Source: Streptomyces sp. NBC_01317 (GTDB lineage: Bacteria > Actinomycetota > Actinomycetes > Streptomycetales > Streptomycetaceae). Taken from it: 64,000 nucleotides of DNA. The position numbers were made by a program, and so were the translations under genes. The stretch's first letter is position 1, and every line of letters begins with the position of its first letter. The stretch covers positions 5,751,001 through 5,815,000 of the forward strand of contig NZ_CP108393.1 of the NCBI RefSeq assembly GCF_035961655.1, read 5' to 3'. This document shows, one piece after another, positions 34,525 to 51,498 of the stretch. Below the pieces are notes generated by a model that was not told the DNA's origin, ran no database searches, and saw nothing but the letters and a program-made list of their open reading frames with translations.

Positions 34525-35256
34525 TCACCTCGGCGACGCCGACCCCAGGGCCTCGGCCACTCCCGGTTCCGCCGGCCCGAGGAAGTGGGGGTCCGGCCGC
34601 AGCGCCGCGTCCAGCGCCGCCTTGCCCGCCGCGAACACCTCCCGCACGCCGCCGTAGTACCAGGTCACGTCGTGCCGCTCGTCGACCCCGACCCCGTACG
34701 AGTCGACCCCGGCGGAACGGCAGAGGGCCACGGCCCGCCGGACATGGAACCCCTGCGTGACGAGCACCGCCCGGTCGACCCCGAATATCTTCTTGGCCCG
34801 GGCGCAGGAGTCCCAGGTGTCGAACCCCGCGTAGTCGCTGACGATGCGCCCGTCCGGCACGCCGTGTCCGGTCAGGTACGTGCGCATCGCGTCCGGCTCG
34901 TCGTACTCCACCCGGCTGTTGTCGCCGGTGACCAGCACGACCCGTACCTTGCCCGTACGGTACAACTCGGCCGCCGTGTCGAGGCGGTGCGCGAGATACG
35001 GCGACGGACGGCCCTCCCGCAGCCCGGCGCCGAACACCACGGCGACGTCCGTGGCCGGGACGTCCGCGACCGTACGGACATGGCTGTCGGCCGCCGTGTA
35101 CATCCAGGTCACCGGTGCCAGCGCGAGCACACACCCCGCCATCACGGCCTGTACGGCGAGGCGTTGGCCACGCCGGGTGCGCGGCAGGCGCGGCAGAGTG
35201 ACCGGACGCGCCAGGCGCGGGGGCCGGGGGAGGCGTGGCAGCTTCGGCAGTGGCAT
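34525..35256 (-). CDS. SanA/YdcF-like DUF218 membrane protein
   Basis: A 243-residue protein with a basic, proline-rich N-terminus, one membrane helix (AVQAVMAGCVLALAPVTWMY) and an external DUF218 domain: VAVVFGAGLREGRPSPYLAHRLDTAAELYRTG, VVLVTGDNSRVEYDEPDAM, TWDSCARAKKIFGVDRAVLVTQGFHVRRAV. The domain is related to E. coli SanA, linked to cell-envelope integrity and vancomycin resistance. The biochemical role is unknown. Single gene, 87 bases downstream of the SWIM-protein operon on the same strand, so it could be read from it; the gap shows no terminator. Confidence 0.87.
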   Translation of the reverse strand: MPLPKLPRLPRPPRLARPVTLPRLPRTRRGQRLAVQAVMAGCVLALAPVTWMYTAADSHVRTVADVPATDVAVVFGAGLREGRPSPYLAHRLDTAAELYRTGKVRVVLVTGDNSRVEYDEPDAMRTYLTGHGVPDGRIVSDYAGFDTWDSCARAKKIFGVDRAVLVTQGFHVRRAVALCRSAGVDSYGVGVDERHDVTWYYGGVREVFAAGKAALDAALRPDPHFLGPAEPGVAEALGSASPR

Positions 35257-35343
35257 GGGTCTCCCTGATGGATCGTGCTGTGCTCTGCTGTGCGGTCGTT
35301 CGTCTGTGCGTTCCCCTCCCTTCAGGACGATCGGCGGCGCCGA

Positions 35344-37320
35344 TCAGTTCGCCGCCGGCTCCGGTGGTGCCCATGCGGCGAGCAGCAGTGACTCGGCCGC
35401 CGCCGACGCGTAGACCGCCGCGGCCAGCCACGCCAGCGCGAAGTTCCCGGGATCGGCGGGCAGCAACCGGCCCAGCGCGTCATGGCGCCGGTCCGCCGCC
35501 GCTTCGGCGAGCGCCTGGACGCGCTGCGCACCGGTCGTGAGCCCCACGGCCCGCAGCCGCCGTGAAAGGTCCCCGTCGCCTGCCGCCGCGGCCACCGCCC
35601 GCCCACCCGCGACCCCGCGCTCCACCGCCCGCCGCAGCAGGTCGAGTTCGACCGGCAGCCCCGGGAGCGGACGGCCAAGGGGCACGGCGTCGACGACACG
35701 CACCAAAGCGGGCGCGCCCGCTCCAACCGGCGTTCCCTCAGCAACCGGCCCATCCCCACCGACGGGCGCGGTCACCGCGACCGTCGCGGATCCCACCGGC
35801 GCGAGGTGCGAACGGTTCAGCAGCCGTAGGCCCAGATCCGTGCGTACGGTCCTGTCGTCGTGCCCCCGCCAGGCCGCGGCCAGGACGTGCACCCGGTCGG
35901 GGCGGTCGGGTACCGCCCGGGCGATCAGCCGGAGCGTGAGCCCCGGCCGGGAGGACAGGAGCCGGAGGTTGTCGGCGTACGGGAGATCGGGGCGTTCGTC
36001 CGGGGCGGCCAGGCGGAGCGTCGGGCCGCCCGACACCACGAAGCCCGCGTCCGTGACCGTACCGTCCAGGAACAGCAGATCGCCGCCCGCCGCCCGGGCG
36101 TCGGCCGGCTCGGCCGACCAGCTGAGGGCCGCGGCCAGTTGGGCGGCGGGTGACCGTTCCCAGAGCGCGGCCAGGGGCGCTTCGTGCCACCCCGCGCCCG
36201 TCGCCCGTACGGAACGCACCTGCCCACCGCCACCGATCCGGCCGTCCGGTGACACCGTCGGCGAGGTGAGGATGACCCCACCGCCGTCCCCCAGGTCACG
36301 CAGCCCCAGCGCGCAGCCGCCGGGCACGGGCGACCCCGACGCCTGGAGCGCCCGCTCCGGACCGCCCGGAGCCACGTCGGAGAGTGTCCGGAGCGTGCCG
36401 TCGGGGGCCAGGGCGTAGACCGTGGCGCCCGCGTACCCGGAGGCGGTCACCACCGCTTCGGTGAAGAGCCCATGCAGCCGCAGCGGGCCCTCGGGCTGAT
36501 AACTCCGGCGCGCGGGGGCGAGGGCCGCCGCCGGTCTGCGGACCAGATCCAGCAACTCCACCAGATCGGCGGAGAGATCGGACAGCCGGAACGCCGGGTC
36601 GTCCGAGCGGGCCTCACCCAGCCGCCGCGCGATGCGTACGGCGGTGGCGGCGGGGCGGTGCAGCCCCGCCAGCCGCGCGGAGTGCGCGGCGTGGAGCAAT
36701 TCGGCCCGGTGCACCGCGCCGGACCCGGTGACACCGGCGACCAGCACGGCCGTCGCGGCCTCCCGCAGCGCGTCGAGGGCCGTGGACTGTACGGGGGTGA
36801 CCGCCACGGAGGCGATGCCGGAAGCGGGGCCGTTGCCGGGCGGGGCCGATACGGCGCCCCCGTCACCGCTCCCGTCGCTCCCGTCGCGTCTCGCGTCGGC
36901 CCCCGGATCCGCAACCGTCCCCGGACCCGGACCCGCAGCCGTCCCCGTCCCCGGACCCGTCCCCAGCGGCGTCCCGGCCTCAGCCACCGTCTCGCTCGCG
37001 GCCTCTACCTCCGCCGCGAGGGGCGCGCTCGACAGGACGGCCGCGCGATGCAGACAGGCGGGCGCCAACAGGCAGCCGCACAAGGCGTCCGCCGCGTCGG
37101 CCACGATTCCCGCCGTGACCCTGAGCGTCACCACCGTGTCCTCGGCGACCCGGACCAATACGCCGTCCTCGGTGGCTTCCACCGGCCAGCCGGCCACGTT
37201 CGCCACCGCCCCGTCCACGCGTTTGCGCAGCCGTACGGGCAGCAGGTCGAGCGCGGCGGCCGCCACGTCGGCGGCAACCGGTGGCAGTCCCGGAGCGGAT
37301 ACCGGAGCGGATCGGGTCAT
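35344..37320 (-). CDS. SWIM zinc-finger protein (YehQ-like), last gene of AAA/VWA operon
   Basis: A 658-residue protein. Near residues 78-90 it has DALCGCLLAPACLHRAAVL, a SWIM-type CxC...CxH zinc motif, which binds DNA or protein. The rest is alanine-rich with a low-complexity Gly/Pro/Thr section about residues 110-165 and long helical stretches, without another known domain. The ATG at 37320 overlaps the stop of the VWA gene (ATGA) and has AGGAGG upstream, so the two are coupled; the frame continues to 37479 only as shadow. In E. coli, YehQ is the SWIM protein beside the YehL ATPase and YehP VWA protein, and this gene has the same partners. Confidence 0.82.
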   Translation of the reverse strand: MTRSAPVSAPGLPPVAADVAAAALDLLPVRLRKRVDGAVANVAGWPVEATEDGVLVRVAEDTVVTLRVTAGIVADAADALCGCLLAPACLHRAAVLSSAPLAAEVEAASETVAEAGTPLGTGPGTGTAAGPGPGTVADPGADARRDGSDGSGDGGAVSAPPGNGPASGIASVAVTPVQSTALDALREAATAVLVAGVTGSGAVHRAELLHAAHSARLAGLHRPAATAVRIARRLGEARSDDPAFRLSDLSADLVELLDLVRRPAAALAPARRSYQPEGPLRLHGLFTEAVVTASGYAGATVYALAPDGTLRTLSDVAPGGPERALQASGSPVPGGCALGLRDLGDGGGVILTSPTVSPDGRIGGGGQVRSVRATGAGWHEAPLAALWERSPAAQLAAALSWSAEPADARAAGGDLLFLDGTVTDAGFVVSGGPTLRLAAPDERPDLPYADNLRLLSSRPGLTLRLIARAVPDRPDRVHVLAAAWRGHDDRTVRTDLGLRLLNRSHLAPVGSATVAVTAPVGGDGPVAEGTPVGAGAPALVRVVDAVPLGRPLPGLPVELDLLRRAVERGVAGGRAVAAAAGDGDLSRRLRAVGLTTGAQRVQALAEAAADRRHDALGRLLPADPGNFALAWLAAAVYASAAAESLLLAAWAPPEPAAN

Positions 37321-40300
37321 CGGTGCGCACCTCCTACGCGTTCGCCGACCCAGCGGGCCAGCTCCAGTGGGCTCAGCGCCGCGACCGGCATGCCGGCCCC
37401 GACCAACTGGCCCGCGATCCCGGTCGAATAACGCGGCCTGCCCTCGTCGTCCAGCGAGGCGCAGCCGAGCACGTGGCACCCGGCGTCGACCAGGGCCCGT
37501 ACCTCCGCGAGCAGCGGCGAGACCGGGCCGCCCTCCTCGAAGTCACTGATCAGGACCACGAGCGTGCGGGACGGCACCGACACCAACTGTCGGGCGTGGC
37601 GCAGCCCCAGCGCGATGTTCGTCCCGCCGCCGACGCTGACCTCCAGCAGCAGGCTCAGGGGGTCGTCGACCTGGTCGGTGAGGTCGACGACTTCGGTGGA
37701 GAACGCCACGAAGTGCGTACTCACCGCGGGAACCCCCGCCAGCACGGCGGCGGTGAGCGCGGCCCAGACCGTCGAGGCCTCCATCGAGCCGGACACGTCC
37801 ACGACGAGGACGAGCCGCCAGTCGGCTGTCTTGCGGGCGCGGGTACGGAACACGGGCCGCTCCGGCAGCACGGTCAACGCGCCGGTGTCCGGGTCCCGGC
37901 GGGCGGTCGCCAGGTTGGCCCGGATGGTACGGGCCAGGTCCAGCGGACCGCCCGGGCGGCGGGTGGGGCGCGGATGGGAGAGGCCGGTGAGCGCGGGGCG
38001 CAGCCGGTGGGCGAGCGCCTCGGTCAACTCGGCCACCAGCTTCGCCACCAGGGGGCGGAGCCGGGCGAGTTGGTGCTCGGGGAGGCCGCCCGCGTACGAC
38101 AGGACGGTCCGCAGCAGCTCCACGGAGGGGCGGGCCGCCGCGGGGTCCAGCTCCATGGCGGCGTCGATCCGCCCGGCGTCGGCGGCAGCGGCGAGCACCT
38201 CCTCGCGGACGCCGGGCCCGAACAGCGCGGTCAACTCCTCGGACCAGGACCGCACATCGGGGTACGGCGCCCCGTCCCCACCCCGCGAACCACCCCGCCC
38301 CTCCTCGCCCCGAGCCCCCTCACCACGTCCAAAGCCGTACAACTCGTCCAACGCGGCACCGACCCGCCCGGCCCCACCCCGCAACTCCCGCCCCCGCCCG
38401 AGCAACAGCCGCCACCGCTCACCGGGGGAGAGAGCGAGTACGCCGCCTGTCGCGCCATCCCGGGGAACGCCGACCGCAACGGTCCCCGCTCCCGCACCCC
38501 CGACCTCAACCGTTGCGACGACCGTGACCGGTCCTGCCATAACCGGTCCTGCCGTAACCGGTCCGGCTGCGGCCGGCTCCGCCGTGGCCGGCCGCGCCTC
38601 ACCGCTGCCCGCGCCCGCAGGCAGACCCGTCGCCAGGTCGGCCGTCAGGCCGGGAAACAACCCCCTCGCCGTCAGGGCCTCCCGGCCCGCCAGGTCCGCC
38701 GACGCCAGGAGCGCCAGCGTCGCCGGATCCGTCATCGGGCCCGGCAAGGTGCCCGCCGCCAGGCCCGTGCGGTCCTCCACCGTGGCCAGGAGCCGGCTCC
38801 TCGCCGCCGGGGAGAGCGTGTCGAAACCCGCGCGCAGGGCGGGCAGCCGGTCCAGGAAATCCCGGTCGGGCAGGGCCTCGACCCGTTCCATCAGGGGGTC
38901 CAGAGCGGGACCGGTCTCCATCAGCGAACCCGCCGCGAGCAGCGCGCCGCGCAGGAATCCGCCCAGGTCCGTACGGAGCGCGGACGTGGTCGCGCCGTCC
39001 ACGCGGGACGCCAGCCGGACGCCGAACTCCGTCGCGTCCCCGCTCCCCAGCAACACCCGGGCCACCCCCGCCGCGCCCCTGATCAGCGCCGTGGCGTCGG
39101 CCTCCAGCCGGACCAGCGCGGCGTCGAGCCGCAGACCGCCACCGAGCGCCGCCGCGGCCCGCCCCGCCAGGGAGACCAGCGCCCGCGCGTCCTCCGCGTC
39201 GGTGGAACCCGCCAGTCCGTCCAGCGCGCGCACCCCCGCGGCGGTGAGGTCGTCGTACGCCTCGGAGAGCGCGGCCCGTTCCCACCCGCCGGGCAGGCCC
39301 GGCAGATGACCGGACCTGATCCGGTCCAACAGGGCCAGCCCGGTGAGCAGTTCGGGCAGCGTCCCGGAGGCGGGCAGCAACTCGGCGGTCTCCGAGAGGC
39401 GTTCCGCGGCGAGGTCTGGGAGTCCGCACCGCGCCGCCTCCTCAAGACCGGCCAGCACCTCCGGGGCCGTCGGGCCGCCGAGCAGGCGCTCCCTCGTCCG
39501 CCGCTGCCGCAGCGTCCCCTCGGTGGCCTGCTCCAGCGTCACTCCCCGCACACCGGTCACATCGAGCATCGCGGCCGTCGACGGAGACCAGGTCACCGTC
39601 CACCGCGTCGTCAGCGGGGCGGCGTCGCCCACTCCCGCGACGCTGCTCTCCTCCCCGTACGGGACACGGCAGGCGGCCAGCCGGCGCAGGGCCAGCTCCC
39701 GGCGCCGGTCCAGGTCGCCGCGGTGCGCGTCGAGACGCAACTCGCGGCGGCCCGGCGCGGTAGGCGTGGGCAGCGACAGCCCACCGAGGAGCGTCTCGAC
39801 GGACGGTCCGAGCCCCGAACGCGGCGTCCCGGGCGCGAGCCGTCCCTGCCGGGTCCCGACCAGGACCTTCTCCATCGAGGCGGCCACGACGCGGCCCCGC
39901 CCGTACAACTGCCCCTGCGTGAGGACGGTCTGCGCCGCCTCCACCACCTCGCCCCGCCCGGCGGCCGGAAGCCCGCGCAGCGACGCCAGATCCCGGGCGA
40001 CCCGGACCACCTCACGGGCGTCGGCGGGCCCGCTGGGGTGACCGCCGTCCCGTACGGCCGCACAGATCCGTACGGCGGTCGCCGTCAACAGGTCGTCCAG
40101 CAGCACCGGATCGCCCGCCGCGAGATGCACCCCACGCTGCCACTCCGGATCCCTGATCCCGGCCGGATACCCGGACCGCTCGTCCAACAGGGCATACGAA
40201 TACGGCACGAGCGAGGTGACCACGCCCCCACCCTTGGCGGCCGGCGAGGCGTCACCCCCCACCACCCGCCCCACATCGGCCCCCGCAGGCCGGGCCGCGT

Positions 40301-41087
40301 CGGCCCCAGCGGCCCGCGCCACGTCGGCCCCCTCGGACCGGCCCACATCGGCCCCTGCGGCCCGCGCCTCGTCCGGCCCTCCCCGGACCAGCGCTGGCGC
40401 GTGGAAGGCCCCGATCACCGCGGCCGTACGGCGGCCGACCCGTTCGGCCAGGTGGCGGCGCATGTTCGCCTCCCGGCGGAGGTCGTACGGGTCGACCGCA
40501 CCTGCGTCCGCCCGCAGCGCCCAGCCCACCAACAGCGCGGCCCGCCGCAGGGCCTCCGGTCCCGAGCCCGGGGCCATCGTCTCGACCAGCCGATCCCACA
40601 GATCGTCCCCGCCCCGCCCCCCGGCCCGTGCCCGCAACGCGGCACTCAACGCCCCGCCACGACCGTCCCCCTCCGCGCCCCCGCCCAGGCCCCGCTCCTC
40701 CCGCGCCTCCAGCGGCAGATCGAACGCGACCACCTCCACCCCCGCCTCCCGCGCCCAGCGGATCGCCGCCAGTTCCGGGGAGAACTCCGCGAACGGCAGG
40801 AACACCAGCCCGCCGCCCGTTCCGTCGCTCCGGCCGCCCGCCAGGGCCACCGGTGGGACCGTCGCCGGGTCGGCGAGATACGGCAGCCAGGGCGCGAACT
40901 CCTCCGGCAGTTCGATGAACAGCACCTCCGGTGCTGCCTGCGTCAGCATGGCCGGCACGGCGGCGGCCAACGCGGGGGAGTGGTGCCTTACCCCGATCAG
41001 ATACGGCTCCGTACAGTCGGCCAGCCGGTTCAACGCCTTCCCGGGCGGGGCCGTCCTCCCAAGCCCCGCCCCCTCACCCCAGCTCAT
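37317..41087 (-). CDS. DUF5682-VWA fusion protein (YehM/YehP-like)
   Basis: A 1256-residue protein joining two parts that are separate proteins elsewhere. The N-terminal ~750 residues are DUF5682-like, opening LADCTEPYLIGVRHHSPALAAAV and VLFIELPEEFAPWLPYLADP, with alanine-rich linkers near 265-300. A variable Gly/Ala/Pro linker follows near 830-880. The C-terminal VWA domain (about 1085-1250) has an intact metal site: DVSGSM (about 1094), GGGTNI and ISDFEEGG. VWA proteins act as adaptors for MoxR-type AAA+ ATPases, encoded immediately upstream. The ATG at 41087 overlaps the ATPase gene by 14 bases; the open frame further up is shadow. Confidence 0.88.
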   Translation of the reverse strand: MSWGEGAGLGRTAPPGKALNRLADCTEPYLIGVRHHSPALAAAVPAMLTQAAPEVLFIELPEEFAPWLPYLADPATVPPVALAGGRSDGTGGGLVFLPFAEFSPELAAIRWAREAGVEVVAFDLPLEAREERGLGGGAEGDGRGGALSAALRARAGGRGGDDLWDRLVETMAPGSGPEALRRAALLVGWALRADAGAVDPYDLRREANMRRHLAERVGRRTAAVIGAFHAPALVRGGPDEARAAGADVGRSEGADVARAAGADAARPAGADVGRVVGGDASPAAKGGGVVTSLVPYSYALLDERSGYPAGIRDPEWQRGVHLAAGDPVLLDDLLTATAVRICAAVRDGGHPSGPADAREVVRVARDLASLRGLPAAGRGEVVEAAQTVLTQGQLYGRGRVVAASMEKVLVGTRQGRLAPGTPRSGLGPSVETLLGGLSLPTPTAPGRRELRLDAHRGDLDRRRELALRRLAACRVPYGEESSVAGVGDAAPLTTRWTVTWSPSTAAMLDVTGVRGVTLEQATEGTLRQRRTRERLLGGPTAPEVLAGLEEAARCGLPDLAAERLSETAELLPASGTLPELLTGLALLDRIRSGHLPGLPGGWERAALSEAYDDLTAAGVRALDGLAGSTDAEDARALVSLAGRAAAALGGGLRLDAALVRLEADATALIRGAAGVARVLLGSGDATEFGVRLASRVDGATTSALRTDLGGFLRGALLAAGSLMETGPALDPLMERVEALPDRDFLDRLPALRAGFDTLSPAARSRLLATVEDRTGLAAGTLPGPMTDPATLALLASADLAGREALTARGLFPGLTADLATGLPAGAGSGEARPATAEPAAAGPVTAGPVMAGPVTVVATVEVGGAGAGTVAVGVPRDGATGGVLALSPGERWRLLLGRGRELRGGAGRVGAALDELYGFGRGEGARGEEGRGGSRGGDGAPYPDVRSWSEELTALFGPGVREEVLAAAADAGRIDAAMELDPAAARPSVELLRTVLSYAGGLPEHQLARLRPLVAKLVAELTEALAHRLRPALTGLSHPRPTRRPGGPLDLARTIRANLATARRDPDTGALTVLPERPVFRTRARKTADWRLVLVVDVSGSMEASTVWAALTAAVLAGVPAVSTHFVAFSTEVVDLTDQVDDPLSLLLEVSVGGGTNIALGLRHARQLVSVPSRTLVVLISDFEEGGPVSPLLAEVRALVDAGCHVLGCASLDDEGRPRYSTGIAGQLVGAGMPVAALSPLELARWVGERVGGAHR

Positions 41088-42234
41088 CGCGCAGCTCCCA
41101 CAACGTCCTCCACAGGGGCGCTCCCGCCTCCGCGCGGCGGCGGATCGGGCCGTCCCAGTAGCCCAGCAGCCTCGCGTGGTCGGCCGGGTCGTCCTTCTGG
41201 ACCGTCCCCAGCAGGTGGCCCGGCAACATGCGGAGCACATCGCGGCCGTCGTTCAGGTACGCCGCTCCCAGGCCCATCGCCGTGGCCACCTGGACCGCCT
41301 CCGCCGTCGACATGACCGTCGAGGGGCGCTCGACCTCCCAGCCCTCCGAGCTCCTCCCCGTCCGCAGGTCCCGGAACGCGGTGATCAAGGCTTCCAGCAC
41401 GGTGTCGTCCACCGAGAACTCCGCCCCGCCGCGCACCAGCGCCGCCGTCGCCTGGCTGCGTACCAGCGCCGTCTCCGCGTCCAGGTCGTCGATCGGGCCC
41501 ACCGTCTCGAAGTTGAAGCGCCGTTTCAGCGCCGCGGACATCTCGGAGACGCCCTTGTCGCGCAAGTTGGCCGTGGCGATCAGCGTGAAGCCGGGCGCCG
41601 CGTGCACCGTGCTGTCGCCGTCCTCCCCGCCCGCCAGTTCCGGAACGGACATCCGGCGTTCGGAGAGCAGCGAGACCAGCGCGTCCTGCACCTCGGGCAG
41701 ACAGCGCGTGACCTCCTCGATCCGGGCCACCGCGCCCCGGGTCATGGCCCGCAGGACGGGGGAGGGGACCAGGGCGTCCCGGCTCGGGCCCTTGGCCAGC
41801 AGCATCGCGTAGTTCCAGCCGTAACGGAGCTGGTCCTCCGTGGTGCCCGCCGTGCCCTGCACCGTCAGCGTGCTCGTGCCGCACACGGCGGCCGACAACA
41901 GCTCGGAGAGCATCGACTTGGCCGTACCGGGCTCGCCCACGAGCAGCAGCCCGCGCTCGCCCGCGAGTGTCACCACACACCGCTCCACCAGCGAGCGGTC
42001 GCCTACGAACTTCCGTGACACCGCGAGCTTCCCCCCGTCCGGCGCCTTGAGCTGTTCGCCGTCCGTGCCGCAGACGAACAGCACCACCGCGCGGGGCGTC
42101 AGCCGCCAGCCCGGCGGTCGCGGTCCGTTGTCGTACGACGCCAGGAACGCCAGCTCCGCCGCGAAGCGGTCCTCCGGCAGCTCCACCTGCCGGGCGCCGC
42201 CCGCCCTCGCCGCCGGTACGGTCTGTTCCCTCAT
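41074..42234 (-). CDS. MoxR-type AAA+ ATPase (YehL-like)
   Basis: A 386-residue ATPase. Walker A is GEPGTAKS (about residues 98-105), a Walker B-type segment AVARIEEVTRCLPEVQDALV (about 165-184), sensor 1 FTLIATANLRDKG (about 216-228) and arginine-finger region AALKRRFNFE (about 235-244). The GAVARIEE line replaces the usual aspartate-glutamate with Ile-Glu-Glu, as in several MoxR relatives. An N-terminal ~85 residues are specific to this subfamily. MoxR ATPases remodel or activate partners together with VWA proteins. The start overlaps the upstream gene (ATGA), and the product is probably made in step with the fusion protein downstream. Confidence 0.92.
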   Translation of the reverse strand: MREQTVPAARAGGARQVELPEDRFAAELAFLASYDNGPRPPGWRLTPRAVVLFVCGTDGEQLKAPDGGKLAVSRKFVGDRSLVERCVVTLAGERGLLLVGEPGTAKSMLSELLSAAVCGTSTLTVQGTAGTTEDQLRYGWNYAMLLAKGPSRDALVPSPVLRAMTRGAVARIEEVTRCLPEVQDALVSLLSERRMSVPELAGGEDGDSTVHAAPGFTLIATANLRDKGVSEMSAALKRRFNFETVGPIDDLDAETALVRSQATAALVRGGAEFSVDDTVLEALITAFRDLRTGRSSEGWEVERPSTVMSTAEAVQVATAMGLGAAYLNDGRDVLRMLPGHLLGTVQKDDPADHARLLGYWDGPIRRRAEAGAPLWRTLWELRDELG

Positions 42235-45200
42235 CGTCTGCCTCCCCGGCCGCCACGGCCCTTGAACTCCTCGAACGCCGGCACCTCGCCGTCGCCCACC
42301 CGCCGCCACGCGGCCTCGAACAGCGCGGGCACCGGCAGGTCGGGCACCACGAAGCCCGGCCTGTCCCACGGCAGCAGCGCCGTCTTCCAGCTCTCCACGG
42401 GCAGCCGGGGAGCGTCCTTCTCCTCCAGCCAGCCGCCGGGCAGGAACACCGTGCGTCCCGCGCGCGCCCGCCTGCCCTCCACCACCAGGTCCGTGGCGGC
42501 CAGTTCGGCCCGCGCCTTCTTCAACCGGGCCGGCTTCCACCCCGTCCACGCCGCCTGGTTCCGGTCCGTCGGATCGGGCAGCGCCAGCAGCATCAGGTAG
42601 AGCGCCGACGCGTCCTCCGAGATCCCGGACCGGCGCGAGACATCGGCCACCAGGCCCTCCACGCTCAGCTGCGGGTTCTGCGGCGGGCCGGCCGGGCCGT
42701 CCGCCGAGACCAGGGCCAGGAACTCGTCACTCAGGACAGCCCGCAGCCCCTCCAGCCCCGACGCCTTCCCCGCCGTGGCCACCAGCAGCTTGAGGTCCGG
42801 GTGGTCGGGACCCCCGCCGCCTCCGCCGTCGACCCCCGGCTCGGGCAGGACGGCCGAGGGCCGCACCCACACCTCCTCGCCCGTCCCCCACCGCGTCGGT
42901 TTCAGGACCAGCGCCGCAGACAGCTCGAACAGCTCGGCATCACCCGCGGCCCGCGTCGGCGCCAGTCCGTACGCCTCCCGCAGACGCGGCGACACCGGGT
43001 CGTAGGCGAAGTCCCGGTCCACCCCCAGGTCCATCAGCAGACCCGGGTCGGCGAGCCGCTCCCGCAGCCTCAGCACCGTCTCCGGCAGTACCGCCCGCAG
43101 CGGATCGCCGAACGGCAGCCGGTACGCGAGCCAGCGCAGCGCCTCGACCCAGCTGCCCAGCGTGCTCCCGGTGAGCAGCCGCGACGCGTCGACCGGTGCC
43201 AGCTCGCCCTCCACCAGGCGCTGTTCCGTACGGCCCGTCAGCTCGCCCTGCCAGGCGGGGTTGAGCACCGCGTCCACGGCCTGGCTCGCGTGCAACTCGG
43301 CGGCCACCCCACGGATCACGGCAGGAGGCAGGACCCGCCGCTTGCCGCGCGTCGCGATCCACTCGCCCACCAGCGGCTCCGCCGGGAACCCGGCCGTCCA
43401 CAGGCCGGCCACGCGCTCCGGGTCGGCAGGCAGCAGCAGCGCCGTGAACAACCGCCGCTGCTCGCTGCCCAGCCCGCTCAGCAGGGACACCGCCCACTCC
43501 AGCTCGGGCTTCTTCACGTCCAGCGGCTCCAGGTACTCGGCGGGCACCTGGTTCCCCCGGTAGCGGTTCAGCCCCGGGCAGCCGAGCTGGAACAGCACGC
43601 CCGCCGACGGTGTGATCCCCACCCGCTCCGCGAACTCCACGCCCAGCTCCGGGCGGTACGGCAGCGGACCACGCTCACGCACCGACTCCACCAGGCGCCG
43701 CACCGCCGGCGCCCGCACCGGGTCGTCCGCCGCGCCCAGCACCGTGGAGCCGGTGACCGTCGTGCCCTCCCAGGCGCCGAAGACGCCGGCGGGGTCGTAC
43801 TCCAGGCACTGCCAGTACTCCTCCTTCTCGTCGGCCCGCGAACAACCGACGATCAGCAGCCGCCGCGCGCCCGCGTGCCGCACCTCGCCGCGCAGCCGTC
43901 GGTCGTCGTTGCCGCTATTGTCGTTATTGTCATCGTCTTCGTCCGCGTCCTCCTCGGGGCCGACCGGCATCCGCAGCTCCACGATCCGCAGCCGCCCCCG
44001 CGGATCGACCATGATCGCCGTGCCGCCGTCCTCGCCGGGAACGCCCTCACCGGAATCGGCGCCCTCCCCTCCCGCGCGTACGTCCAGCGCCGCGTCCAGG
44101 AGTTCCAACAGGGCCTCCCGATGCGGTTCAGGCGTCACCGGTACGGCCGCCCGGACCGCGAGCGCCACCAGCGTGGATCCGTACACGGGCACCCAGCCGA
44201 CGCTCTCGGGAGCGGCCTCCGGCCGCCCCGGCACGCCGTCCGCCGCGAGCAGCGCCGACAACCGGCCGATCTGGTCGAAGATCACCGTCGAGCTCTGGGA
44301 CATGTGCCGGTAGCCGAAGTGGTACCCGTCGGGCACCAGGCCCTCGAACGCCTCCTCCAGCACCTTGTCGTACGCATGACGCACCGTCGGCCCGTCCGCC
44401 GCCAGGTCCCCGGGACCCCGCTCCGCCCGCTCCGCGAGCTTCGCGAGGCGTTCCGCGTGGCGGGCCGCCTCCCTCACCACGCCGGCCACCCCCGCCACCA
44501 GCCCGGGGTGGGTGACCTCCGGCAGCAGCGCGCGCACCGCCGCGTCCGGCTCCGCACCGCCGGCGACGGCCGACAGCAGCGCCTCCGCGTCCGTGTCCGT
44601 CACCGCGCGCAACGCGGCCGATCCCCGTTCGTCGCGGGGCCGCAGCGCGTGCCAGTGCGACGTCGGCGGGACGAGCGGGGTGCCCGCGCCGTACGTCCCC
44701 TCCGTGCCCCCCGCGGTGTGGCGAGCGAGGCAGATCCCCTCGCCGTCGTACAGCTCGATCTGCGCCCCGCCGTACGACGCCTTCTCGCGCGGGTGCAGGA
44801 CGGCTCCGCCCGGCAGCCGCATGGGCGGCAGCGGGACCCCGGAGTGCTCCGGGACGGCCGGGCCGCGGTTGCCGTCCACCGAACAGGCCGTCAGCGTCCC
44901 CTCGGTCGGGTCGTACGTCACGTACCAGCCCAGCAGTCCGTCCTTCGTCCCGAAGGGGGAGGACTCCAGGCCGGGACGCACAGGGAGCAGCCGGCAGGCG
45001 TTCTCCCGCAGCCGGATCGCGTCGCCGGTCAGGGCCGTCGCGAAGAAGGCCGGTACGGAGACGCGGCCCCGGCGGGCCGACGCCGGGTCGTACTCCCACC
45101 ACTGGTTCTCGTGCAGGACCCAGACGGAGATGCCGTCCGAGGCGACCGGCCTGCGCTCGTCCGCGAACGAGATGTCGCCCGGATGGACCGGCCGGCCGCC

Positions 45201-47282
45201 GTAGCACCGGCTGCCGTCGGCCAGGGGGAGCGAGGGCATGCCGCCGCCGTTCCCCTGGCCGTTGATCTCGCCCTGGGGCTTGAAGACCTCGGTGGGACGG
45301 CCCGACCACACACCGCGCCGGTCGTCACCCCATCCGTTGACGACGAGCCACTGACCGTCCACGTACGCGATGTGGGTCGTGTCCCACGTGGTCTTCGAGA
45401 CCGTGGGCAGCGTGAGCGTCCGCCGGTCGAGCACCTGGTCGGGGCCGACGGCCGCCACCTGGGGGCCGACCCGGACGAGCAGGGCGGGCCAGGCGTCCGT
45501 CAGCCGGTACGGCTCGTCCGCGCCCGCCCTGACCCTGCCGCCCGGAGCCGCGTTCTTCGTGGTCTTCCCCAGGTGGGGCAGGGCCTCCTCCAACCCCTGA
45601 TGGCCCAGCTCGTCGAGGATCCCGCCGCGCAGGGTCCTGGCCAGGGCGGGGGCGGGGGACACCGCCGTGATCCGCCGGACCGCCCCGGGCGCGGTGGCCA
45701 GTACGGACGGCGACGAGAACCGCGACAACCGGTGCAGCCTGTCGTTCAGCTCGGGCAGCCCGAACGGCCGGCCCAGGTCGTCGGCCCGCTCCTCCAGCCA
45801 GCCCGCGAGCACCGTGCGCAGCGCGGGGTGACGGGCCATCGATTCGAGCAGCTCGGGCGCCCCGCCGCGGCCGGCCTCCTGCTCCACGGCGCCCCGCAGC
45901 GCCCGGGCGAACCGCGGCTCCGAGGTCACCGCCAGCAGATCCCTGCGGCCCTCCCGCTCGTCGGACACCCAACTGCCCAGGTGTACTTCCCTCCCCTCGT
46001 CGGAGAGATCCTCGACCGGCACGCCCCAGGACAGACAGGCGTCCAGCAGGTCCAGGTCCACCCCGGTCCGCCACCCGGTGCCGCTGCTCAGCCGCACCGG
46101 CACCGCGTCCGCGACCAGGCGGTCCACCAGCCGCTCCACCAGGGTCAGTTCGGCGGCGAGCCGCGGGGTCTGCCCCCAGCCGCGCTGCCGGTGGGCCGCC
46201 CAGGACGTCACCCAGCCGGCCGCCGGGACCGAGCCGTCCAGCAGCAGGTCCACCGCGCCGCACCGCTCCAGCAGCGCCAGCCACGAGTCGTCGAACGCCG
46301 CCGCGTCGCCGCCCGGAGCCGGCATCAGCGTCAACAGCCGCTCCCGCACCGCCCGGTCCTCGGTCGCCACGTCCGACAGGGACGGCAGGGCGGCCTGCCA
46401 GAAACTCACCGCCGCGCGGTTCATCGCCCCCGTGTGGATGATCTCCGCGAGCAGGGACCGCTCCTCGGCGCGCGCGTCGAGCCCCGCGCCCTTCGACAGC
46501 CGGCGCAGATCCTCCAGCATCCCCGCGTACGGGGCGAGTCCGGACGCGCACCGCTCCACGGACAGGGTCCTGAACTGCGCGTGCGCCTCTTCGGGAGACA
46601 GCCGTACCGCCAGCCCCCTGGCATGCTCGCGCAGCGCCTTCCCGCTGAGCGCGCCCGCCGCGGCGAACTCCAGGAAGACCTCCCGCAGCCGTTCCTCGTC
46701 CACCGCCAGCGCGTACCGCTGCTCGGCCGTCCTGGCCTTGCCGAAGAACGTCGCCGCCTGCGCCGTGGACTCCACGGCCAGGAAGAGCCTCGCGACCTGT
46801 TCGTAGAAGGTGGGCAGGAAGTGCGGTACGGAACGGTCGAGCCGCTCCCCGATCTCGTCGAACCCCTCCTTCGCCAGCCCCGGCTTGGTGGCCACGAGCC
46901 GCGCGAGCCGCTCCATCTCCTTGACCACGGCGAGCGCGTGATGCCCGTTGCCCGGGTCGTTCACGAGCGCCCACGCGGGGAAGCCCAGGGACTGCCGCTT
47001 CACCCGGCCGACCTCGGCCACCTCCGCGGCGGAGAAGCCCAGATACTCGGCGGAGAGGTCCTCGGCGGCCCCGATCGCGCCGGGCACGAGCCGTACCACC
47101 GTGCGCCCGTTGAGCACCGGATGGCCGTACGCCCTGGCCGTCAGCACATCGCCCGCCACGGCCCCGCCCTCCGCGCCGAGCGGCAGCACCGCCCCGGCGT
47201 CCAGCAGATCCCCCGCCGGGAGACCCGCCTCCAGCGGTCGCCCGTCGTTCACAACACCCCCACGCACAACGCCCCCGCTCAC
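42231..47282 (-). CDS. giant protein of unknown function in AAA/VWA operon
   Basis: A 1683-residue protein with no domain I can name. The first ~600 residues are helical and Leu/Ala-rich (for example PGLAKEGFDEIGERLDRSVPHFLPT). A central part, about residues 610-860, is rich in Trp, Gly and Asp with blade-like strands (TTHIAYVDGQWLVVNGWGDD, DGISVWVLHENQWWEYD, LLGWYVTYDPTEGTLTACS), suggesting a propeller or similar beta domain. An acidic low-complexity run (EEDADEDDDNNDNSGNDD) lies near 1107-1125. The final ~500 residues are again helical. It starts with a GTG overlapping the DUF4132-like gene by GTGA and ends overlapping the ATPase gene. No WGR domain is present, unlike E. coli YehI/MolR. It may be the substrate-recognition or effector part of the system. 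Confidence 0.85.
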   Translation of the reverse strand: MSGGVVRGGVVNDGRPLEAGLPAGDLLDAGAVLPLGAEGGAVAGDVLTARAYGHPVLNGRTVVRLVPGAIGAAEDLSAEYLGFSAAEVAEVGRVKRQSLGFPAWALVNDPGNGHHALAVVKEMERLARLVATKPGLAKEGFDEIGERLDRSVPHFLPTFYEQVARLFLAVESTAQAATFFGKARTAEQRYALAVDEERLREVFLEFAAAGALSGKALREHARGLAVRLSPEEAHAQFRTLSVERCASGLAPYAGMLEDLRRLSKGAGLDARAEERSLLAEIIHTGAMNRAAVSFWQAALPSLSDVATEDRAVRERLLTLMPAPGGDAAAFDDSWLALLERCGAVDLLLDGSVPAAGWVTSWAAHRQRGWGQTPRLAAELTLVERLVDRLVADAVPVRLSSGTGWRTGVDLDLLDACLSWGVPVEDLSDEGREVHLGSWVSDEREGRRDLLAVTSEPRFARALRGAVEQEAGRGGAPELLESMARHPALRTVLAGWLEERADDLGRPFGLPELNDRLHRLSRFSSPSVLATAPGAVRRITAVSPAPALARTLRGGILDELGHQGLEEALPHLGKTTKNAAPGGRVRAGADEPYRLTDAWPALLVRVGPQVAAVGPDQVLDRRTLTLPTVSKTTWDTTHIAYVDGQWLVVNGWGDDRRGVWSGRPTEVFKPQGEINGQGNGGGMPSLPLADGSRCYGGRPVHPGDISFADERRPVASDGISVWVLHENQWWEYDPASARRGRVSVPAFFATALTGDAIRLRENACRLLPVRPGLESSPFGTKDGLLGWYVTYDPTEGTLTACSVDGNRGPAVPEHSGVPLPPMRLPGGAVLHPREKASYGGAQIELYDGEGICLARHTAGGTEGTYGAGTPLVPPTSHWHALRPRDERGSAALRAVTDTDAEALLSAVAGGAEPDAAVRALLPEVTHPGLVAGVAGVVREAARHAERLAKLAERAERGPGDLAADGPTVRHAYDKVLEEAFEGLVPDGYHFGYRHMSQSSTVIFDQIGRLSALLAADGVPGRPEAAPESVGWVPVYGSTLVALAVRAAVPVTPEPHREALLELLDAALDVRAGGEGADSGEGVPGEDGGTAIMVDPRGRLRIVELRMPVGPEEDADEDDDNNDNSGNDDRRLRGEVRHAGARRLLIVGCSRADEKEEYWQCLEYDPAGVFGAWEGTTVTGSTVLGAADDPVRAPAVRRLVESVRERGPLPYRPELGVEFAERVGITPSAGVLFQLGCPGLNRYRGNQVPAEYLEPLDVKKPELEWAVSLLSGLGSEQRRLFTALLLPADPERVAGLWTAGFPAEPLVGEWIATRGKRRVLPPAVIRGVAAELHASQAVDAVLNPAWQGELTGRTEQRLVEGELAPVDASRLLTGSTLGSWVEALRWLAYRLPFGDPLRAVLPETVLRLRERLADPGLLMDLGVDRDFAYDPVSPRLREAYGLAPTRAAGDAELFELSAALVLKPTRWGTGEEVWVRPSAVLPEPGVDGGGGGGPDHPDLKLLVATAGKASGLEGLRAVLSDEFLALVSADGPAGPPQNPQLSVEGLVADVSRRSGISEDASALYLMLLALPDPTDRNQAAWTGWKPARLKKARAELAATDLVVEGRRARAGRTVFLPGGWLEEKDAPRLPVESWKTALLPWDRPGFVVPDLPVPALFEAAWRRVGDGEVPAFEEFKGRGGRGGRR

Positions 47283-48181
47283 AGCGCCCCCTCCTCTTCG
47301 CTCTCGACCACACGGCCCGCGAACACCAGCGCGGCCATCCGCTCACCTTCGGACCAGGCGACCGGCCCCACTTCACCGAGCGGCAGCCGCCGCCCCGTCC
47401 CGTCCCGCCACTCCAGCGCTCCCGTCCGCGCCTCCGCGTCCGGATAGTCGCCCCCCAGCCAGTACGCCGCCTCCAACTGCCGTCCGTCCTCGACCAGCCG
47501 GCACAGCGCCTGGCCGCCCCGCACCCGGTAACCGAGCGTCAGCGCCCGCCCGGTGGCATGCCGCAGCTGGGCGAACTTCCCGTTCGCGTACGCGCTCCAG
47601 GACGTGTCCGTGCCGGCCGTCCCCGCGACCCCCTCCGGCTCCGGCCGTTGCCACACCTCGCGGAACAACTGCTCCACGCCCTGCTCGACCTTCAGCTCCG
47701 CCGCGAACTCCCGCAGCTCCGCCAGGTCTTCGAGCAGCACCGGATGGGGGATCAGCACCGACGTCACTCCCGCCGGGTCCAGCCACACCGAATCCCCGTC
47801 GAGATCCACGATCCCGAGCCCCTTCACCGGATCCGCGTCCCGCAGGAACCCGGCGCGCGCGGTGTCCGCCGACCCGTCCTCGCCCACCGGCGCCACCACC
47901 AGATCCCGCAGCGCCGCCTGCCACGCCGTGTCCGGCCACACCCGCGCCAACAGCGCGACCGGCACCGGCAGCGACCGCACCAGCCAGGCGTCCACCTGCT
48001 CCCGGCACTCGCTCTCGTGCCGCGCCAGCCACTCGGCCAACTGCCTGAGCCTGACCACCTCGACGTCGTCCTTGAGCTTCGGCGGCACCTGCTTCAGCGC
48101 CCTGCCCGCGGCATTGCGGCACAGCACCCGCGTGCCCTCCAGCGAGACGGCGTACCCGCCCGCCGTTTCGATCCAACCCAT
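47279..48181 (-). CDS. DUF4132-like protein, first gene of AAA/VWA operon
   Basis: A 300-residue protein. Its C-terminal half resembles the DUF4132 domain of E. coli YehI: VTSVLIPHPVLLEDLAELRE, EQLFREVWQRPEPE, then ATGRALTLGYRVRGGQALCRLVEDG, which corresponds to the 'HP...QPF.Q..R' pattern of that domain. The N-terminus (GRALKQVPPKLKDDVEVVRLRQLAEWLARHESECREQV) is a helical region also seen next to DUF4132. GGAGGGG precedes the ATG at 48181; the open frame runs 22 codons further without a site. It opens the five-gene operon, whose promoter must lie in 48182-48295. Confidence 0.8.
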   Translation of the reverse strand: MGWIETAGGYAVSLEGTRVLCRNAAGRALKQVPPKLKDDVEVVRLRQLAEWLARHESECREQVDAWLVRSLPVPVALLARVWPDTAWQAALRDLVVAPVGEDGSADTARAGFLRDADPVKGLGIVDLDGDSVWLDPAGVTSVLIPHPVLLEDLAELREFAAELKVEQGVEQLFREVWQRPEPEGVAGTAGTDTSWSAYANGKFAQLRHATGRALTLGYRVRGGQALCRLVEDGRQLEAAYWLGGDYPDAEARTGALEWRDGTGRRLPLGEVGPVAWSEGERMAALVFAGRVVESEEEGAL

Positions 48182-48248
48182 GGCAGGACCCCTCCCCGAC
48201 CTTCTGGTTCTCGAACTGATCACCACGTTAGGCGGGGGGTCTGACAAC

Positions 48249-48262
48249 GGCCCGATCGGGCC
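48249..48262. promoter_or_regulatory. perfect 14-bp palindrome between permease and AAA/VWA operon
   Basis: GGCCCGATCGGGCC is a perfect palindrome, 34 bases beyond the stop of the minus-strand permease gene and 68 bases upstream of the first gene of the AAA/VWA operon. With no loop it is more like a protein-binding site than a terminator, but it may also serve as a weak hairpin ending the permease transcript. Confidence 0.4.
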
Positions 48263-48295
48263 CGTGAGCTGCTGGAACGCCGAGGTGGCCCCGCG

Positions 48296-49873
48296 TCAGA
48301 CGATGTCCTCCATCTGCTGGATGTCCCGGGGCGAGCGGGAGTGGGTACGGGTCTCCCGGACGCGGCGCGCGAACGGCCAGTACGCCGTCGCCAGCAGCAG
48401 CGCCCCGGCCAGCGCGGCCACCGCGTAGTTCATCGTGTCGATGGTGACGGGGTAGCTCTGCGGCAGGCAGAACAGCACCGTGCAGAAGGTCACCCAGACC
48501 ACCGCCGTCCAGCCCACCAGGTTGCTCCAGCGGCCCAGGTGCCACGGCCCGGGAGTGAACCGCTCGGGGCGCACGAGCTTGAGGAAGACCGGGATGATGT
48601 ACACCGGCGTGATCCCGACGACGCTGATCGCCGTGATCGCGCCGTACGCGGTGGTCGACCACAGCGACGGCAGGGTCAGCGCGAAGGCCGCGACCACCGT
48701 CATGCACACGGCCCAGTACGGCACCAGGGTGCGGCGGCTGATGCGGCGCCAGAGGTGCGAGAAGGGGAGTTCGCCGTCGCGGCTGACGGCGAAGACCATC
48801 CGTGAACCCGACGTGGTCACGGCGATCGTGCAGAAGAACATCGCGCCGATCACCAGGAGCAGCATCAGCGTCGCGCCGTCGGTGCCGAGCGCGTCGATGA
48901 GGATCTGGGCGGGCGGCACCCCGGTCGCGGTCGCCTGGGTGGCGGCGTAGTCCTGGATCGCGAACGTGAGGCCCGCCAGCAGGATGAACCCGCCGATCCA
49001 CGACCACACGATCGACTTGATGATGCCGCGCGGCGCCGAGACGGCGGCCTGGGTGGTCTCCTCCGACAGGTGCGCGGAGGCGTCGTACCCGGTGAAGGTG
49101 TACATGGTCAGCAGCAGGCCGAGCGCGCACACGTACAGCGGATTCGAGAAGCCCGTGTCGTTGACGAACTCACCGAAGACAAAACCGGGCGACTGGTGGC
49201 TGTCGGGCAGGATCCACAGCGTGCCGACGATCGTCACGATGCCGACGAGGTGCCACCACACGCTCAGGTCGTTGAAGAACGCGGCGATCCGCACCCCGCA
49301 CAGGTTGATCGCCGCGACGGCTGTCAGGATGACCGCGAGGATCAGCAGCGTCGACCCGGGTGTGGGTTCGTAGCCTGTCTGGAGACTCAGCAGCGCGCCG
49401 AGGAAGGCCGCGGCGCCGTAGCCGCTGCCGGCCAGACCGCCCAGCATGCCGAGCAGGTTGATCCACCCGGTGTAGTACCCCCAGCGCGGTCCGCCGAGGA
49501 TACGGGCCATGTAATACATGGCCCCCGAGGTGGGGTACGCGCTCGTCACCTCCGCCAGGGCCATCCCGATGATCAGGACCATGGCCCCGGCGCCGACCCA
49601 GCCCCACATCATGACGGCCGGGCCGCCGTGGCCCATGCCGTATCCGTAGAGGGTCATGCAACCGGTCAACACCGAGATGACACTGAAACTGATGGCGAAG
49701 TTCCCGAACGGGCCCATGCGCCGGGCCAGAACGGGCTGGTAGCCCAGCTCCTTGAGGCGTTGTGCGTCCGGTGTGTCGCCCCGGTCGCCGACAGCGGGGG
49801 TCCGGGAGGAGCCGGAAGTCCCTGAGGTGCCGGTGGGCGAACCGGTCGGTGAGGTGCCTGTCGAGGAAGACAA
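48296..49873 (-). CDS. APC-family amino-acid permease
   Basis: A 525-residue, 12-helix transporter of the amino acid-polyamine-organocation superfamily, closest in feel to GABA/choline-type permeases. Key segments are ELGYQPVLARRMGPFGNFAISFSVISVLTGCM-like opening, AEVTSAYPTSGAMYYMARIL, TGYDASAHLSEETTQAAVSAPRGI and SGSRMVFAVSRDGELPFSHLW. The TTG at 49873 is chosen because AAGGA lies seven bases upstream and the N-terminus becomes a normal polar tail; the frame is open to 50071 but that part is proline-rich and overlaps the gene upstream. Substrate unknown. Confidence 0.87.
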   Translation of the reverse strand: MSSSTGTSPTGSPTGTSGTSGSSRTPAVGDRGDTPDAQRLKELGYQPVLARRMGPFGNFAISFSVISVLTGCMTLYGYGMGHGGPAVMMWGWVGAGAMVLIIGMALAEVTSAYPTSGAMYYMARILGGPRWGYYTGWINLLGMLGGLAGSGYGAAAFLGALLSLQTGYEPTPGSTLLILAVILTAVAAINLCGVRIAAFFNDLSVWWHLVGIVTIVGTLWILPDSHQSPGFVFGEFVNDTGFSNPLYVCALGLLLTMYTFTGYDASAHLSEETTQAAVSAPRGIIKSIVWSWIGGFILLAGLTFAIQDYAATQATATGVPPAQILIDALGTDGATLMLLLVIGAMFFCTIAVTTSGSRMVFAVSRDGELPFSHLWRRISRRTLVPYWAVCMTVVAAFALTLPSLWSTTAYGAITAISVVGITPVYIIPVFLKLVRPERFTPGPWHLGRWSNLVGWTAVVWVTFCTVLFCLPQSYPVTIDTMNYAVAALAGALLLATAYWPFARRVRETRTHSRSPRDIQQMEDIV

Positions 49874-51191: not shown

Positions 51192-51363
51192 ATATCCCCC
51201 TTCCCCCACGGGACTTCCCCGTGAAGCGTGAGGCTTTCCATGAAGCAGCCCCCACCGCGGTCCATTGCACACTACACGGCGTGTTCGAGCACTTACGGAA
51301 TCTTTTCGCAAATTAAAAATCGCAACTCGGCCACAATGCACGCACCATGCGCACCGCCGTATT

Positions 51364-51393
51364 GGGGAAATCCACTCACTATTCCATTTCCCC
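51364..51393. promoter_or_regulatory. inverted repeat upstream of dgt
   Basis: GGGGAAAT (51364-51371) and ATTTCCCC (51386-51393) form a perfect eight-base dyad with a 14-base spacer inside the most AT-rich patch of this part of the window (about 51290-51393). It lies between the minus-strand small gene and dgt and could control either. Confidence 0.5.
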
Positions 51394-51400
51394 CCGGATC

Positions 51401-51440
51401 GGCCTGTCCGGGCCGGTCCGGGGCCGTCCGGGCCCGTCCG
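51401..51440. repeat. four phased 10-bp direct repeats upstream of dgt
   Basis: Four consecutive units of the form GG-C/G-C-N-GTCCG occur exactly every ten bases (51401, 51411, 51421, 51431), so equivalent bases lie on one face of the helix. They end 58 bases before the dgt start. They may be a cooperative protein-binding array or simple slippage products. Confidence 0.7.
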
Positions 51441-51498
51441 GGCGATATGCGGTGGCCCGGGGGGACTCGCTGTCGGTCCCTCCGGTTACCTTCGATAC

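Follow-up and report, generated by a model that had tools for sequence, protein, structure and literature searches.

Five overlapping genes on the minus strand of a 64,000-nucleotide stretch from Streptomyces sp. NBC_01317 (the window, meaning the whole stretch at its full length) make up an operon at positions 35344-48181. In the order of transcription they encode a DUF4132-domain protein (g1), a giant protein without a library match (g2), a MoxR-type AAA+ ATPase (g3), a DUF5682-VWA fusion (g4) and a SWIM-motif protein (g5). New here is a putative DNA-damage-type promoter before g1, which the original prediction of this operon had missed and which points to a part in the DNA-damage response. 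The operon likely belongs to the LexA-independent (RecA-NDp/PafBC-type) DNA-damage regulon and, on balance, we favour the reading that it encodes a DNA-damage-inducible MoxR-VWA remodelling machine.

A putative damage-type promoter element precedes the operon

The element was first seen as a TTGTCAG...TA...T block common to the DNA before g1. In the window, this sequence reads TTGTCAGAC-CCCCCGCC-TAACGT.

48225-48247, minus strand: promoter element of the RecA-NDp (PafBC) type, TTGTCAGAC-N8-TAACGT, ending 43 nucleotides (nt) before the g1 start

Mycobacteria have a LexA-independent damage promoter, given as tTGTCRgtg - 8 nt - TannnT (PMC5656591). Elsewhere the same promoter is called RecA-NDp; PafBC is reported to act through it, and a role for ClgR has also been reported. 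The window site fits the capital-letter core and the spacing of this consensus. Scanning both strands of the whole 64-kb window with the pattern TTGTC[AG]G-N10-TANNNT yielded a single match, the site before g1, while no LexA-type sequence (CGAACN4GTTCG with up to one mismatch) was found between 26.8 and 54.8 kb.

A giant-alignment scan of named genomes found 294 relatives, of which 80 loci were kept. A g1 match was present in 78 of these; one had less than 200 nt upstream and was dropped, leaving 77 for the motif count. Of the 77 loci, 74 have the core TGTCR-N11-TANNNT in the 150 nt that precede g1, as compared to 3 of 1504 control stretches. When all 12 fixed positions were scored at their best place within the same 150 nt, 35 loci had a perfect match, 20 had one mismatch, 14 had two and 8 had three to five; among 1503 stretches drawn at random from the same loci there were no perfect matches, one with a single mismatch and five with two. 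Perfect matches anywhere in these loci (3.45 Mb, both strands counted) number 36, and 35 of them sit before g1. The core columns are fixed by the anchoring of the alignment; in the columns 30 to 4 nt before the core, the frequency of the top base never exceeds 0.59. Since the loci share ancestry, these counts measure conservation and not 77 independent events.

The motif recurs elsewhere in the source genome (a single contig of 8.07 Mb), which has 22 perfect sites of the RecA-NDp type versus one for the reversed pattern. Each of the 61 same-genus genomes scanned contained it, and the control gave 0 or 1 matches per genome. Downstream genes were scanned for 20 of the 22 sites, half of them with Pfam and half with NCBIfam (ten each), and three gave no match. 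Genes behind these sites include recA, ruvC, ung, a UvrD-family helicase, a gene that we take to be RadA-like and a WGR protein. Two of the sites have other associations. The WGR-domain protein, which also has weaker Pfam matches of beta-propeller type, lies behind a perfect site near 769582-769604 of the genome; the E. coli yeh region likewise has a PF05406 (WGR) gene, yehF. The gene moaA (GTP 3',8-cyclase) begins 77 nt behind a perfect site in the 6434970-6434992 region, an odd finding beside the old molybdate name MolR.

Could the element be a conserved intergenic sequence with no role in damage, the function of the operon being unrelated? We regard this as very improbable. The shared ancestry of the loci and the imperfect window copy would agree with it, as would the many own-genome sites that precede genes with no evident repair role (carotenoid desaturase-like, major facilitator superfamily, lectin, MoaA and others); against it, core and spacing persist in 74 of 77 loci while no column just upstream is conserved above the value given, independent types of DUF5682 gene set carry the motif at other genes (next section), and the same pattern precedes recA, ruvC and ung and occurs throughout the scanned genomes of the genus against a near-empty control.

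Damage-type sites at other DUF5682 gene sets

Four types of DUF5682 gene set were distinguished in actinobacteria, type A being the one in the window. Type B is also found in the source genome, where its SWIM gene is divergent from MoxR-DUF5682-VWA. Type C (loci L151 and L255) is E. coli-like, with a YehI homologue and a MoxR protein 64% identical to YehL. Type D (L152-L155) begins with one or two unknown genes, followed by VWA-MoxR-DUF5682.

Type B sets of the source genome and of 8 of 8 other same-genus genomes carry two sites, a perfect one before the SWIM gene (7 nt before its start in the source genome) and one with a single mismatch before MoxR; in 17 control regions, sites with one mismatch numbered 3 and perfect ones were absent. 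Among nine type B or related loci from outside the genus, L218 alone shows a near-match ahead of SWIM; a match in L225 lies at an unrelated place. In type C, a perfect site is found in L151, 70 nt before a YehF-like match. In type D, three of the four loci have a perfect site; the distances to the nearest start codon downstream, that of the first called gene, are 21, 32 and 58 nt. As to type A itself, one copy sits on a linear plasmid and has a perfect site 85 nt before g1, and a set from another family (L150) shows the core only. No site was found at a Rhodococcus DUF4132 gene, and in Embleya the only site has one mismatch and lies kilobases from the DUF4132 gene.

Some related sets in other bacteria also seem to be tied to DNA damage, and similar hints come from two further phyla. 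A plasmid of Deinococcus taeanensis carries a SWIM-DUF5691-AAA-hypothetical-DUF5682-VWA operon with a perfect TTATGYN5RCRTAA sequence of the radiation/desiccation response motif (RDRM)/DdrO type 19 nt before SWIM, where base composition predicts 0.0017 in the locus; the pattern was composed here from DdrO sites printed in PMC8533742. According to the same paper, a DdrO site precedes drA0165-drA0166 in D. radiodurans, DUF4132 is found in DRA0166, and the level of the DRA0166 protein rises after mitomycin C in the wild type, an increase not seen in an irrE mutant. In E. coli, molR is listed among known LexA-regulated genes (PMC11039860), and one source names a YehI-like protein molybdate metabolism regulator. 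Rhizobial plasmids have either a full DUF4132 protein inside the operon or the arrangement SWIM-DUF5691-AAA-DUF5682-VWA, in one case with a first gene annotated as hypothetical.

Two details of gene content were recorded in these sets. DUF5691 immediately precedes the AAA gene in one Deinococcus (L244:9156-10610) and two Rhizobium sets (L248, L250). On the Iodobacter fluviatilis plasmid pl1, typed as mobilizable, a DUF4132-AAA-DUF5682-VWA-SWIM set lies between insertion sequence (IS) elements and beside a type I restriction-modification system; no SOS patterns occur just before this operon.

The five genes form a conserved, patchily distributed cassette

The genes of the operon are as follows (aa, amino acids).

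47279-48181, minus strand: g1, DUF4132-domain protein, 300 aa, first gene, start ATG at 48181 (Pfam PF13569, 5.2e-24)
42231-47282, minus strand: g2, giant of unknown family, 1683 aa, start GTG, without library match
41074-42234, minus strand: g3, YehL-like MoxR-type AAA+ ATPase, 386 aa, start ATG (Pfam AAA_5, 1.5e-39)
37317-41087, minus strand: g4, DUF5682-VWA fusion, 1256 aa, start ATG (PF18934, 1.1e-177; VWA_CoxE, PF05762, 1.7e-65)
35344-37320, minus strand: g5, SWIM-motif protein, 658 aa, last gene, start ATG, assigned by its motif

Open reading frame (ORF) and start-codon checks confirmed the overlapping arrangement proposed in the original prediction, with successive overlaps of 4, 4, 14 and 4 bases, and the region 34900-48500 contains no terminator-like site by consensus scan. 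The domain set claimed there stands for DUF4132, AAA+, DUF5682 and VWA, all of which Pfam matched; the SWIM assignment was recovered as a motif, Pfam making no such call in g5.

In every locus with enough contig (58/58), all five genes are collinear and on one strand. Where the contig leaves room, partner genes were found in 77/77 (g1), 71/71 (g3), 60/60 (g4) and 59/59 (g5) loci. The five genes are thus a real conserved unit, beyond what chance would produce. The claim that the set co-occurs beyond close relatives held up as well, its hosts including Streptomyces, Kitasatospora, Embleya, Actinacidiphila and Dactylosporangium. The cassette is nonetheless accessory and patchy, because giant matches were obtained in 45 of 101 genomes drawn from the genus (E<=1e-3, partial and divergent matches counted), in 11 of 148 drawn from the class and, with the profile at E<=1e-10, in 7 of 296 drawn from the phylum. 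A DUF5682 gene adjoins the giant in all seven of the latter.

Flanking genes with a Pfam match comprise an aminotransferase, an amino-acid permease, DUF218, a methyltransferase, an HD phosphohydrolase, an oxidoreductase and DnaG primase; the remaining flanking ORFs had no Pfam match. The HD/HD_assoc gene (51265-52839) and the primase gene (54383-56308) give the surroundings the look of an ordinary replication neighbourhood.

The giant protein and its link to g1

Searches of Pfam, NCBIfam and PADLOC gave zero matches for the giant, and its profile found no hits in PDB. Sub-threshold Pfam matches over 24 giants belonged to 8 families, each seen in one member only and none recurring. Inspected by eye, the giant gives an impression, on which no claim is based, of helical repeats on either side of a middle part resembling a beta-propeller. 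Relatives are numerous all the same: 1242 proteins scored E<=1e-3 among 8000 candidates. The closest named ones are from Streptomyces, with 93% identity in Streptomyces sp. SID3212. The source genome has no second DUF4132 protein or giant; several same-genus genomes hold, at a distance from the giant, another ORF that resembles it but is more divergent (about 30-35% identity). Homology of the giant to YehI was considered and rejected, BLAST and hidden Markov model (HMM) searches having given nothing significant.

That g1 and g2 belong together is apparent from two natural fusions. In locus L147, a single ORF contains a complete g1-like part followed by g2-like parts. In L148, the first third of g1 is joined to parts from the N- and C-terminal ends of g2, whose middle (about 540-1075) has no match. 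MoxR, DUF5682, VWA and SWIM genes were not found within the 20 kb fetched around either fusion. A copy of the promoter motif with one mismatch lies 30 nt upstream of the called start of the L148 fusion, and none was found upstream of that in L147. Beside the L148 fusion is a divergent gene (L148:3838-6471) with macro and arginine ADP-ribosyltransferase Pfam domains; near the start of this ORF, on the same strand, there is a perfect RecA-NDp-type match at 6310-6332.

MoxR, VWA and SWIM motifs, and two alternative functions

The signature motifs of g3, g4 and g5 are located as follows.

41914-41937, minus strand: P-loop GEPGTAKS of g3 (GXXXTAKS form), intact in 75/75 complete homologues
37785-37799, minus strand: VWA metal ion-dependent adhesion site (MIDAS) motif DVSGS of g4, residues 1097-1101, found by motif search
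37048-37080, minus strand: SWIM-type motif CGCLLAPACLH of g5 (CxCx6CxH, residues 81-91), found by motif search

The MIDAS pieces DVSGS, GGGT and [VI]SDF are each present in 62/62 VWA homologues. For the second piece, a stricter GGT[NDE] pattern is matched by 7 of the 62, while GGGT followed by any residue is matched by all. The VWA domain stops nine residues short of the C-terminus of g4. The CxCx6CxH form occurs in 61 of 62 g5 homologues, and in the 62nd the pattern searched for is matched by a different string only.

The P-loop of g3 has the form described for two classes of MoxR-vWA conflict systems (PMC7159879), and both g3 (0.00018; 21.1 bits, cut-off 27) and the own-genome type B MoxR show sub-threshold matches to bpMoxR, the MoxR of one such class. 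We considered that the operon might be an anti-phage or conflict system of this kind, its damage promoter responding to phage attack on DNA. The patchy distribution in the genus, the type A copy on a plasmid and the Iodobacter set next to a restriction system and IS elements would suit such a system, and vWA-MoxR-VMAP systems have been reported near type III CRISPR loci (PMC10910872). PADLOC, however, gave no match for g1, g2, g4 and g5 (g3 was scanned with Pfam only), the core gene set is constant in 58/58 loci, those neighbours in the window that have a match are ordinary, and the presence of the type B relative in 9 of 9 same-genus genomes listed suits a house function. DUF5682, DUF4132, SWIM and yeh are absent from the text of PMC7159879. 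A MoxR relative was found in 1 of 50,697 phage records. The guess of a defence role made in the original prediction is therefore not supported; we consider it unlikely, giving it some weight because phage infection can damage DNA and because g3 resembles the MoxR of conflict systems.

The best VWA family of g4, VWA_CoxE, brings to mind a different possibility, namely that the operon encodes a CoxD/CoxE-like machine for cofactor or metal insertion, or has a molybdate role as the MolR name implies (PMC8533742), and is damage-regulated by chance. The perfect motif 77 nt upstream of moaA in the source genome would agree with this. The cassette, in contrast, contains no metalloenzyme client, because no other gene lies inside, and in D. 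radiodurans moeA and moeB were not differentially expressed (PMC8533742), so that we find a metal-insertion role improbable.

DUF5682 as a candidate TIKI-like hydrolase

Alignment of the DUF5682 part of g4 brought out a small set of strongly conserved residues.

40980-40994, minus strand: first GX2H-type motif, GVRHH, residues 32-36
40911-40913, minus strand: Glu59, invariant
40473-40475, minus strand: Arg205, invariant
40401-40412, minus strand: second GX2H motif, GAFH, residues 226-229, with G226 and H229 invariant

Residues G32, R34, H35 and H36 are conserved in 54/54 aligned type A rows, the window row counted. Across types A to D, H35, H36, E59, R205, G226 and H229 are invariant in 29/29 rows; the G of the first motif is replaced in type D rows and in L136. 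The TIKI/TraB metallohydrolases have the residue set GX2H, E, R, GX2H, and DUF5682 may be a metallohydrolase of this kind. Among the 29 members, sub-threshold Pfam matches to ChaN were seen in 2 and to TraB in 1; in the ten members rescanned, the TraB match spans the region of the second GX2H (177-207 of L130) and the ChaN match covers 93-229 of L126. These matches are weak, because other single ones, such as EccE at 0.011, are equally good. In hhalign comparisons, DUF5682 versus TraB was not significant, the positive control (Ere versus TraB) also failed, and one of three column-shuffled controls outscored the real pair; versus Ere, the first motif falls in register with an E of only 0.17. 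A DUF5682 profile search of PDB returned 0 hits at E<=10. With sub-threshold matches no better than some unrelated ones and an uninformative profile comparison, the hydrolase step is held at about one in three.

Proposed function

MoxR-VWA pairs have been described in which a client peptide is captured at the VWA MIDAS site and remodelled with ATP (PMC7159879). By extension, we envisage that DNA damage would induce transcription from the RecA-NDp (PafBC-type) promoter before g1. Judging by their families, g3 would form the ATPase ring and the VWA part of g4 would capture the client through its intact MIDAS site, while the TIKI/TraB-type residues make DUF5682 a tentative candidate for the catalytic or processing centre. 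Given their natural fusions, g1 and g2 may act as one scaffold or target-recognition unit, and the SWIM motif of g5 might provide a zinc-binding contact to nucleic acid or protein. ATP turnover would then drive remodelling, and perhaps cleavage, of proteins on damaged DNA or of repair or replication complexes.

Several observations weigh against a damage-inducible machine. The window site departs from the full mycobacterial consensus at two weakly conserved positions (gtg to gac), and the 77 loci, being related, do not give independent counts. Sites are missing from type D locus L154, from Nocardia type B and from Nonomuraea type C; before the type B or related sets L219-L224 and L226, outside the genus, no site with up to one mismatch was found, L219 and L223 showing only three-mismatch sites near the SWIM start, which were not counted. 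The Deinococcus evidence consists of one locus and a pattern composed by ourselves from printed sites. That from E. coli rests on print, because the LexA-like site before yehF (one mismatch) is not above chance, 8 being found versus 8.0 expected in the 28-kb locus. No alpha-type SOS box occurs within 600 nt before five rhizobial operons. The TIKI assignment lacks significant profile support by hhalign, PDB profile search or sub-threshold Pfam. Finally, an initial search in a LexA study of S. venezuelae suggested that the PafBC motif of M. smegmatis is not conserved there (PMC9380542). The presence of the motif in 61/61 same-genus genomes, set against that initial search, bears on the question of a LexA-independent damage regulon in Streptomyces.

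A wider and more speculative proposal, to which we attach tentative credence well below that given to the damage-inducible machine itself, is that DUF5682/MoxR/VWA/SWIM sets are a widespread, unrecognised arm of the DNA-damage response. They would combine an AAA+ machine with a TIKI-type metalloprotease centre and would have been wired separately into PafBC-type (Streptomyces), DdrO (Deinococcus) and LexA (E. coli) regulons, the giant and DUF4132 serving as an actinobacterial reader of damage sites. In a literature search on DUF5682 and DUF5691, neither term was met among the matches listed; DUF4132 was met in 3 papers. The shared damage-regulon signature offers a concrete and cheap test of the role of the DUF5682 family under DNA damage.

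Relation to known systems

Like members of the RecA-NDp/PafBC regulon of actinobacteria, the operon has the motif, the 8-nt spacing and the placement before the first gene. That regulon is described for mycobacteria and for one Streptomyces macrodomain gene, the available descriptions naming no DUF5682 system. With the MoxR-vWA ternary conflict systems (PMC7159879), the operon shares the MoxR-vWA pair and the GXXXTAKS P-loop. It differs in that g1, g2, g4 and g5 have no Pfam match to VMAP, iSTAND, FtsH or vWA-beta-propeller, and in that no hypervariable effector was seen, the five genes being constant in 58/58 loci in a count limited to these five. DUF5682 has the GX2H, E, R, GX2H pattern of the TIKI/TraB/EreA-ChaN superfamily. 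It differs in continuing into a long additional region and in its link to a VWA domain.

The type B set of the source genome, located near a succinyl-CoA-ligase-type gene, likewise comprises MoxR, DUF5682, VWA and SWIM and has RecA-NDp-type sites. There, however, DUF5682 and VWA are separate, the MoxR P-loop is GVPGTAKT, and no second DUF4132 or giant accompanies it in the genome. The g3 protein is less similar to this MoxR (248 bits) than to E. coli YehL, with which it has 46% identity (288 bits) and the P-loop GEPGTAKS in common.

The kinship with the E. coli yeh genes invoked in the original prediction is borne out by this identity, by those of the VWA part of g4 to YehP (39%, 210 bits) and of its DUF5682 part to YehM (25%), and by the gene order in K-12, where yehI-L-M-P-Q present the same domain set, SWIM being represented in the window by its motif. 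The differences are that YehM and YehP are separate proteins in E. coli and fused in g4, that similarities of g5 to YehQ and of the giant to YehI are not significant, and that a full-length YehI (1210 aa) stands in E. coli where the window has a 300-aa DUF4132 protein and a 1683-aa giant. Because DUF4132 is found here only in g1 and the giant does not align significantly with YehI, we do not assign the cassette to the E. coli type itself; its domains and sequence identities place it among the Yeh-type MoxR-VWA systems as a separate, new variant.

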